Assembly (NCBI RefSeq): GCF_000350105.1
Contig: NZ_CAIY01000044.1
Location: forward strand, 1 to 64,000
Origin: Richelia intracellularis HH01
GTDB taxonomy: Bacteria; Cyanobacteriota; Cyanobacteriia; Cyanobacteriales; Nostocaceae
Length of the DNA: 64,000 bases
Direction: 5' to 3'
Shown: positions 9,234 through 12,043 of the stretch, piece by piece
Numbering within the stretch: the stretch's first letter is position 1
How the letters are laid out: each line of letters starts with the position of its first letter
Program-made: the position numbers and the translations under genes
Notes under the pieces: generated by a model
What the model was told of the DNA's origin: nothing
Database searches by the model: none
The model's input: only the letters and a program-made list of their open reading frames with translations

Positions 9234-9569
9234 ATTTAAATTCTATAGAGTGCTTAGTTAAAGGTTACTTTAATTACCACTTAGGAATATATTTCCTTAT
9301 ATTTTTGGCATAAAAATCAAAATTTCAAGCATCATACAAAGCATACATACTTGGAAGAGCAAGTAATATTTTTTGAAATCCGCCATGAATAAGCCCTCTG
9401 TGCTACTATCTGGATGGTTTTCAATGGCCCCTAAATATAAAGAAAGTTAAGCATTTAGACTGGCACAACCGTAACATCTCTATTTTTTGATGGTTAAGGG
9501 GAAAATCATAGTGCGAGATAGCATTTTCATGACAAATACAAGTCTTTATAAAAAAATACCCAAATACAA
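9234..9569. other. Gene-free spacer
   Basis: 336 bp between queC and the oxidoreductase relic. It must hold the queC promoter. A 29-codon hydrophobic minus-strand frame exists, but it matches no small photosystem protein that I know. The first part of the relic's original reading frame may also be lost here: an in-frame TAA lies just upstream of its Rossmann strand. Confidence 0.4.
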
Positions 9570-10142
9570 TCAATTCGCATTACTGTAATTGATGTCGGAC
9601 AGATGGGACATAACTATACACGTGTTCTAAGCTTGATGAAAGGTATAAAATTGGTCGGTGTGGCAGATATTAATATTGAACGTGGTGTTGAAACTGCCAC
9701 AAGATATCAAGTCAAGTTTTTTGAAGACTATCGTGACTTACTACCCCATGCAGATGCTGTTTGCATTGCTGTCCTTACCATACTAAATCACACTGTGAGT
9801 GTTAATTGTTTACGGGCAGGAATTCATGTCCTCATCGAGAAGCTGATCGCAAAAAGTGTTTCTGAAGCAGAATCTCTTATTAAATCTAGATGTATTCTTC
9901 TTGTGGGACAGACTGAACGCTTTAGTCCTACTTTTCAAGAATTATGTAAAGTTCTTAAAACAGAAGAATTATTGGCTTTAGAAACTCGTCGTATGAATCT
10001 GTATACTAATAGGGCAAATTATGTATCAGTAATTCTATATCTAATGATCCATGATATTGATTTGCTCTTAGAAATAGCCGCAGCATCTGTAACTAAAAGG
10101 TTTTGGGAGAAGGATCTTGGGACTCCCGAATTTACCATATGA
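9570..10142 (+). pseudogene. Gfo/Idh/MocA-family oxidoreductase relic
   Basis: The N-terminal half of an NAD(P)-binding oxidoreductase. The Rossmann start ITVIDVGQMGHNYTRV lies upstream of the first ATG (9603), with no good start codon before an in-frame stop. The usual glycine-rich pattern is damaged (GQMGHN), and the conserved EKP catalytic motif reads EKL (HVLIEKLIAKS). The match continues through GQTERFSPTFQEL and MIHDIDLLLEIA. It then breaks off into RFWEKDLGTPEFTI and stops at about 180 aa, roughly half the family length of 330-350. No C-terminal half is recognisable downstream. I judge it a decayed gene. Confidence 0.8.
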
Positions 10143-10408
10143 CACAAAAATAAGCTCATTAACTCCTATAATTTAAGATGGAAAACTGGAATATTAGGTC
10201 CAATAATAATTAGTGTTTTGTTAAGATTTTTAGGATAATTAAATTATCAAAAGTACTAAGTGCCTCTATTCTCTAAAGTAAGTTTATTTTTGGGTCTATA
10301 TTTTTTTGATTTAAATTCTATTAGCAAAGAAAAACTTTGAATGAGTATAACCATTATGTATTATATGGCTAAGTGAAAAATATGGCTAGGTGACAACTGG
10401 GAGCTCTC

Positions 10409-11551
10409 ATGATAGATAAACCATCTGCAAACACCTCTATGAACGCTGCGGCTATTCCAATAAATAGAGTATCAAGTTCAAATAATATACATTCTGTACC
10501 CAATACTATGAGTGGTTTAGGGAATAATATTCTTAGTATTGATTTAGGTAGAACTTCTACAAAGACCTGTATCAGCCGTGAACCTGATAATGTCACTTTT
10601 GTACCATCTAATGTCAAACAGATGCCTATGGAACAAGCACGAGGGGGAGTTTTTGAGGCACGTGATACAGACCCACTGATGGATTTATGGTTGGAATATC
10701 AAGGTTATGGATATGCTGTTGGTCAATTAGCAGCAGATTTTGGAGCTAATCTAGGTGTGGGCCAATCCAAAGTTGAGGCTGCATTAATTAAGGTATTAGC
10801 CTCTGTTGGCTACTTCAATCTCAAGGGAGATATTTTAATTGTTATGGGTTTACCTTATTTATCCCAAGAGCAGTTTGAAAAAGAAAAGGCCCAATTGATT
10901 AGCCAATTAAGTGGTCCCCATATAATGAATTTTCGTGGTGAATCCGTAGAATTAAACATTGCCAAAGTTTGGGTGATGCCAGAAGGCTATGGAAGCCTTC
11001 TATGGTCTGAGGCTCAACATAAACAAGGGTCAGGAGATCCTGATTTTACACAGCTGTCAGTTGCACTGGTTGATATTGGTCATCAGACGATTGATTATTT
11101 GATGGTTGATAACTTCCGTTTTGCTAGAGGGGCTTCCAAGAGCGAAGATTTTGGCATGAACAAGTTTTATGAACTAGTTGCTAAAGAAATTGAAGGGGCT
11201 GATAGTCAGTCTCTAGCTTTGATATCTGCTGTAAATAAGCCCAAAGGTGATAGGTTTTATCGTCCTAGAGGTGCCAGCAAACCTAGTAATTTGGATGATT
11301 TCTTGCCTGCGTTGATAGAAGTTTTCTCTCGTGAAATTTGTGATCGTGTGCTAGCATGGCTACCAGAAAGAGTAACAGACATGATTCTAACAGGGGGAGG
11401 AGGAGAGTTTTTTTGTAAGGATGTACAACGTTTACTCAAAGATGCAAAAATCAATACCCACTTAGCTGCACCATCACGTCAAGCCAACGCTCTAGGACAA
11501 TATATTTATGGAGAGGCACAGGTCTCTTCCAAAAGTTTTTCTATATCTTAA
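10409..11551 (+). CDS. ParM-like actin-family ATPase (chromosomal)
   Basis: A 380-aa actin-fold ATPase of the ParM/StbA/Alp type, expected to form ATP-dependent filaments. After a 40-residue Asn/Ser-rich extension, phosphate motif 1 is ILSIDLGRTSTKT (residues 41-53), phosphate motif 2 is VDIGHQTIDY (221-230), and the adenosine motif is DMILTGGGGEFF (324-335). All nucleotide-site motifs are intact. The next gene, 6 bp downstream, has ParR-like architecture, so the two form an operon. ParM normally segregates plasmids, yet here it lies among core chromosomal genes and I saw no replication initiator. From memory, a chromosomal ParMR-derived pair in Anabaena (CorMR) has been reported to act in cell shape. 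Orthology is inference. Confidence 0.83.
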   Translation: MIDKPSANTSMNAAAIPINRVSSSNNIHSVPNTMSGLGNNILSIDLGRTSTKTCISREPDNVTFVPSNVKQMPMEQARGGVFEARDTDPLMDLWLEYQGYGYAVGQLAADFGANLGVGQSKVEAALIKVLASVGYFNLKGDILIVMGLPYLSQEQFEKEKAQLISQLSGPHIMNFRGESVELNIAKVWVMPEGYGSLLWSEAQHKQGSGDPDFTQLSVALVDIGHQTIDYLMVDNFRFARGASKSEDFGMNKFYELVAKEIEGADSQSLALISAVNKPKGDRFYRPRGASKPSNLDDFLPALIEVFSREICDRVLAWLPERVTDMILTGGGGEFFCKDVQRLLKDAKINTHLAAPSRQANALGQYIYGEAQVSSKSFSIS

Positions 11552-11557
11552 ATACTG

Positions 11558-12043
11558 ATGTTTCAATGGTCGAAAAGGGTAGTTAAATCGGTTACATTTG
11601 AGCCAGGAGCGGCGGATGAAAGTTTGCTGGCAATGATTAAAAGTTATTTGGAAAAACAACCAGAGAAAACCTTTAGCCAAATGTGTAAGGAGGCTTTATG
11701 GCAATCTTTATGTGTACCAAAATCAGTCAAGCCTAATCCGAAAGGAGCAATAAAATTAGAGGCTGAACAAAATATTGCTGATTTAAAAAATCAATTGTCT
11801 AGATTGGAAGAGTATTTTCTTTCCAATCAATCTTATCGTTTAGAACTTATAGAACACCAAATTGCACAACTAAGTCAACAAGTTACACAATTGGTAATTA
11901 CGGCAAACCAAGAACCACCTACTCAGACTGTCAAATCTTCGGAAACTGCCTTGGATAATTCGACCAATAATACTGTTTCTTCCACTCCAGAAGATATTGA
12001 CCCATTAATCAGCCGTCTTAGTCAATTCCTGGAAAATTTTTAG
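11558..12043 (+). CDS. ParR-like partner of the actin ATPase
   Basis: A 161-aa protein read as the adaptor of the upstream ParM-like filament. Residues 9-53 fit a ribbon-helix-helix: strand KSVTFEPG, helix DESLLAMIKSYLEK, helix TFSQMCKEALWQSLC. Residues about 66-115 form a coiled coil with heptad Leu/Ile (LKNQLSRLEEYF, LIEHQIAQLSQQVTQL). A Thr/Ser-rich linker leads to a short terminal helix IDPLISRLSQFLENF, the place where ParR proteins contact ParM. The first nine residues, MFQWSKRVV, are amphipathic and basic, and could bind membrane. The assignment rests on position and architecture rather than a strong sequence match. No iterated centromere-like repeats were seen upstream of the operon. 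Confidence 0.7.
   Translation: MFQWSKRVVKSVTFEPGAADESLLAMIKSYLEKQPEKTFSQMCKEALWQSLCVPKSVKPNPKGAIKLEAEQNIADLKNQLSRLEEYFLSNQSYRLELIEHQIAQLSQQVTQLVITANQEPPTQTVKSSETALDNSTNNTVSSTPEDIDPLISRLSQFLENF

Follow-up and report, generated by a model that had tools for sequence, protein, structure and literature searches.

The window analysed here, a stretch of 64,000 nucleotides at the start of a 383-kb contig of Richelia intracellularis HH01, carries two adjacent genes on the forward strand, and these correspond to the pair described in an earlier note on this DNA as an actin-fold ATPase followed after 6 bp by a small protein. In the list of open reading frames of the window, both frames lie on the same strand with a gap of 6 bp. 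The first gene, fcmB (corM; 10409–11551), encodes an actin-like ATPase of 380 aa with the Pfam domains ALP_N (1.2e-16) and MreB-like_C (4e-9), and the second, fcmC (corR; 11558–12043), encodes a partner protein of 161 aa that matches no Pfam family above the cut-off and is presumably the CorR of the CorMR system. The nucleotide motifs of the ATPase had been described as complete; DLGRT at residue 45, DIGHQT at 222 and GGGG at 329, which we take to be the nucleotide motifs of the actin fold, show no variation across 15 divergent family members. A stretch of about 28 residues (residues 1–29; 10409–10495) precedes the actin domain of FcmB and is near-invariant in Nostocaceae, mostly retained in L076 and partly in L078, and absent or different in most other members. 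The pair lies, as had been stated, between an oxidoreductase relic and cysS, the latter downstream of fcmC on the opposite strand. The relic (gfo/idh/mocA type; 9552–10142, forward strand, with an open reading frame at 9603–10142) is what is left of the usual upstream neighbour in relatives, and about half of it is lost: the tblastn match, at 9552–10097, covers residues 23–208 of an intact relative of 368 aa.

Both proteins fall within curated families. FcmB scores 695.4 bits against the NCBIfam equivalog NF052678 (morpho_FcmB; cut-off 300) and FcmC 202.3 bits against NF052682 (morpho_FcmC; cut-off 90), whereas the NCBIfam model of plasmid ParM gives FcmB 53 bits against a cut-off of 417. The pair of Nostoc punctiforme NIES-2108 (L124) scores 743.5 and 235.4 bits on the same two models. 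Comparison with N. punctiforme rests here on this NIES-2108 pair, with which Npun_R4472/R4471 share their families by the curated models. The likeness to CorMR, which is said to be a chromosomal ParMR-derived cell-shape system of Anabaena, was borne out by the actin: residues 1–375 of FcmB match a PDB chain named CorM (9rmi) with an E-value of 9.7e-201, and no difference of kind was seen between the two. With the FcmB family profile, the ParM chains in the PDB trail far behind CorM (4e-6 and weaker). The earlier note had proposed a phylogeny with plasmid-type ParMs; in such a tree, built from 58 proteins, these and the FcmB family fall on opposite sides of a branch supported at 100/100. Among the matches listed, family members share at least 54% identity with FcmB, and ParM-type relatives at most 33%. 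On these sequence comparisons, the window pair appears to be the ortholog, in a reduced genome, of fcmB/fcmC of N. punctiforme.

The family is widespread. All 118 Nostocaceae genomes in the sample contain an FcmB match, with an identity of at least 70% in 117 of them, and 117 contain an FcmC match. The single exception is G096, in which FcmC is missing and the FcmB match is limited to 79 residues at the edge of a contig. In G006, FcmC lies in two pieces in separate frames, and a split FcmC frame of two pieces was seen at L014. In a class-wide sample of 388 genomes, 138 have some FcmB match; by hand count, 90 genomes reach an E-value of 1e-70 or better, and the rest hold weak ParM-type matches or fragments. 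Gene neighbourhoods were counted in flanks of 4 kb for 80 named loci kept from 273 found, and within these flanks of fcmB occur FcmC (80/80), gfo (76/80), queC (72/80) and cysS (0/80). The downstream frame picked up at L088 is an unrelated one. Because the same gfo, FcmC and queC neighbours recur across loci, the operon has a fixed chromosomal address, and the rearrangement of the window locus is confined to the cysS side. A second, degraded FcmC-like copy with 46% identity and four stop codons was seen in a same-genus genome (G043:C245:20964-21398), some 14 kb away from the intact operon.

FcmC consists of a conserved N-terminus, two short helices, a coiled coil and a conserved C-terminal helix. 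Among 30 selected FcmC proteins, F14, D20, F39, C43 and L47 are invariant, the middle part is very variable in length, and the C-terminal motif comprises D148 (29/30), P149 (29/30), R153 (26/30) and F161 (30/30). The structure predictions that the earlier note had suggested were informative for one protein of the two. The AlphaFold2 model of FcmC (mean pLDDT 63.8) has helices, predicted with moderate confidence, at residues 21–33, 39–52, 64–117 and 149–159, while the prediction for FcmB reached a mean pLDDT of 33.2, probably because its alignment comprised only close relatives. From the ParR architecture ascribed to FcmC, the coiled coil and the terminal helix are thus present in the model; the ribbon-helix-helix fold is not confirmed, as residues 1–16 have pLDDT below 50 and no strand, although a monomer model cannot show an intermolecular strand. 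Pfam gave no ribbon-helix-helix match for the window FcmC, and of four relatives a single one had a weak match (E 0.1); a comparison with the PDB returned coiled-coil and other chance matches with no ribbon-helix-helix protein among them. A fold search with the model gave a sole match, which was discarded as meaningless (E 6.1). The predicted helix layout is nevertheless compatible with an adaptor that has a ribbon-helix-helix domain and a tail for filament binding, in which residues 1–56 (11558–11725) would be a possible ribbon-helix-helix or membrane-contact segment. The C-terminal end of ParR binds the ParM filament, and by analogy residues 148–161 of FcmC (11999–12040; helix 149–159) are proposed to be the end that binds the FcmB filament.

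The first 12 residues of FcmC are basic and weakly amphipathic, with a helical hydrophobic moment of 0.59 that about 3% of 2000 shuffles reach; for the other FcmC proteins among the 13 tested, 2 to 65% of shuffles reach the observed value. MFQWSK is near-invariant in the Nostocaceae alignment; a similar sequence occurs in L076 and L077, which represent two further families of the order, and most of the remaining rows lack it. In three proteins from a family with small genomes (L095, L097 and L098; f31), inspection by eye suggests a second N-terminal segment resembling strand-helix-helix, with SITF...FSELCK followed by SVTF...FSEWVK.

The function of the family has been studied genetically in N. 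punctiforme. According to the published account, FcmB filaments at the membrane encircle the cell and are needed for rod shape, deletion of fcmB or fcmC yields wide, round cells that have lost the rod shape, FcmC forms membrane foci, FcmB requires FcmC for its membrane localisation, and the two proteins interact in a two-hybrid assay (PMC12645912). The same study reports fcmB/fcmC in all heterocyst-forming species of a set of 126 genomes (PMC12645912). By analogy, FcmB would bind ATP and polymerise into actin-like filaments, and FcmC, a former ParR-type adaptor, would bind these filaments through its C-terminal helix, oligomerise through its coiled coil and tie the filaments to the cytoplasmic membrane, not to plasmid DNA; the filaments would then encircle the cell and maintain its rod shape. 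We infer these roles for the parts of FcmC, and that the operon probably works in this organism as it does in N. punctiforme. The window locus is thus almost certainly the chromosomal fcmB-fcmC operon of heterocyst-forming-type Nostocaceae, whose membrane-tied actin filaments would hold the rod shape. The proposal that the pair has been exapted for cell shape is therefore right, given the membership of both proteins in the curated families and the loss of rod shape upon deletion in N. punctiforme, but it is already published (PMC12645912). The locus itself is neither unusual nor new, because FcmB is present in every Nostocaceae genome sampled.

Two other explanations have to be weighed against rod-shape maintenance, and the one in which the pair is a working ParM/ParR system for DNA segregation, whether derived from an integrated plasmid or working on chromosomal DNA, is highly improbable. 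FcmC would then bind centromere repeats and FcmB would push DNA apart, and the ParM-type actin fold, a PHROG match to 'partition protein' (3.6e-36), the parMR-like order of the two genes and the possible ribbon-helix-helix segment of FcmC would all suit such a role. However, no iterated centromere-like repeats were found upstream of fcmB (intergenic region 10143–10408, forward strand), in agreement with the earlier note; shuffling equals the best direct repeat, 2 x 17 nt at 10363–10396, in 9 of 100 trials, and the most extreme of the 21 upstream regions inspected for repeats (L006) in 3 of 100. This 17-nt tandem repeat was considered as a vestigial centromere and rejected, being within chance and absent from aligned relatives. 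The claim that there is no plasmid replication gene nearby also holds for the frames scanned: no plasmid gene was found among 14 flanking open reading frames, out of about 35 of at least 150 aa, all those scanned lying in the left half of the window. The flanking frames include RNA polymerase subunits, dnaJ, Raf1, TatD, an SRP54-type GTPase, UbiA, queC and cysS, and two of the 14 scanned have no strong family. A megablast search of 72,556 plasmids with positions 1–24000 of the window gave no match, nor was a relative of FcmC found in these plasmids at E 0.01. The chromosomal neighbourhood shared by 72–76 of the 80 named loci also argues against segregation, as does a profile comparison in which FcmC matched none of eight partner proteins that accompany ParM-type actins in the same bacterial family. 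Plasmid-type ParM systems of Nostocaceae resemble the window pair in actin fold and two-gene layout but differ from it in identity (at most 33% among the matches listed) and in the partner protein, and the window lacks parC-like repeats. Finally, in the N. punctiforme study the nucleoid of fcmB/fcmC mutants showed no obvious alteration (PMC12645912).

The operon could instead be a functionless remnant that is decaying in the symbiont, which is very unlikely. R. intracellularis HH01 is a diatom symbiont with a genome of about 3.24 Mbp (PMC8969518); the assembly used here has 3,240,816 bases in 90 contigs, a completeness of 89% and a low G+C content. Decay would be in keeping with the end branch of the window FcmB in the 58-protein tree (0.2, compared with 0.027 and 0.061 for the two nearest rows), with an open frame for MreC of 199 aa as against 270 aa in a same-genus genome, and with the state of the neighbours. 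The description of the pair as intact amid decayed neighbours applies to the upstream side, where gfo is half lost and no match was found in the window to the DedA-type gene that separates gfo from fcmB in N. punctiforme NIES-2108, but not to queC and cysS, which appear intact. A distant DedA-type relative with 27% identity occurs elsewhere in the source genome. The window also lacks any match to the phosphomutase that N. punctiforme NIES-2108 has downstream. In comparisons of the window with three relatives, dN/dS (NG86) was 0.105, 0.047 and 0.067 for fcmB and 0.305, 0.238 and 0.222 for fcmC, above the 0.032 and 0.107, respectively, found between two relatives, and by YN00 the value for fcmC rose to as much as 0.41 in the window as against 0.19 between two relatives; several dS values are 1 or more and therefore saturated, so that all of these ratios are rough. 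Because FcmC evolves faster in the window than between the two relatives, partial relaxation is possible. Nevertheless, the frames of fcmB and fcmC are intact with dN/dS well below 1, the nucleotide motifs and the C-terminal motif of FcmC are retained, and homologues of MreB, MreC and FtsW/RodA are also present in the source genome. The operon thus appears, from these substitution ratios, to be under purifying selection, with a constraint that looks looser than in larger genomes.

The rod-shape operon of the window shares with FcmB/FcmC of N. punctiforme (Npun_R4472/R4471; PMC12645912) the curated NCBIfam families, the gene order, the chromosomal location and the bacterial family. Unlike that pair, it resides in a reduced genome of 3.24 Mb, is more diverged, has lost the DedA-type neighbour and has a changed upstream region. 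The block at 10269–10408 upstream of fcmB is conserved in most of 20 aligned relatives and clearly diverged in the window, and hormogonium-linked regulation of fcmB/fcmC, reported for N. punctiforme (PMC12645912), may therefore be altered in the symbiont.

FcmB also occurs outside the chromosomal operon. A plasmid search with FcmB returned four records at 60–80% identity, all of them fusions without FcmC. In six fusion copies (three on plasmids and three on genome contigs), the FcmB part terminates open frames of 513–633 residues, which, judged by eye, begin with a hydrophobic segment resembling a glycine zipper, together with a coiled coil. In four of the six, the fusion gene is preceded by a gene for a glycine-rich protein of 336 aa with a weak HNH-like motif (Pfam 0.07; PHROG 0.0024); this protein has matches, many of them weak, in 71 of 217 Nostocaceae genomes, and none in the genome of the window. 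Examples of the resulting cassette are L196 (4470–7026, pNPM2), L197 (4477–7050, plasmid A of Trichormus variabilis ATCC 29413) and L199–L218. In the 20 cassette loci listed (78–100% identity in the 336-aa protein; some are plasmids already among the six copies), the gene after the 336-aa gene encodes the same N-terminal module and then a variable domain, which is the FcmB actin in 12 (blastp), a dynamin-like GTPase in six (confirmed by Pfam in L213 and seen by eye in the other five), GUN4 in one (L202) and, by eye, no recognised domain in one (L210).

In the 58-protein tree, six fusion-type FcmB proteins group together in a single clade (100/99), which lies inside the chromosomal clade of heterocystous cyanobacteria. 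In a tree of the actin domain only, with more rows, well-supported branches require three or more switches of label between chromosomal and fused, and three fusions group with the N. punctiforme-type chromosomal FcmB. The actin domain may therefore have been captured repeatedly from chromosomal FcmB; a single fusion gain with losses, or gene conversion, could also account for these trees. No convincing match to defence models was obtained for the cassette (best 0.0014), and a literature search on it that required most terms together found nothing. We see about an even chance that chromosomal FcmB was recruited, on one or perhaps several occasions, into a mobile Nostocaceae cassette of two genes, where it forms the C-terminal domain of a protein that looks membrane-anchored. 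Its place next to the HNH-motif partner can also be taken by a dynamin-type GTPase or GUN4, and the cassette could be a conflict or defence system with host-like domains as sensor or bait. On this reading, the window locus would be the ordinary chromosomal parent. The step from plasmid actin to chromosomal shape actin is already known; the cassette, should it prove a genuine system, would be a case in which mobile DNA puts a cytoskeletal protein to new use as an exchangeable module.

For the window locus, the only new element is that a genome of 3.24 Mb retains the operon under purifying selection while gfo is half lost and the DedA-type gene is gone. A plasmid-derived shape actin is thereby retained together with MreB, itself an actin-fold shape protein encoded by a separate gene, in a strongly reduced Nostocaceae genome, and this co-retention is in keeping with the idea that neither shape system can replace the other.
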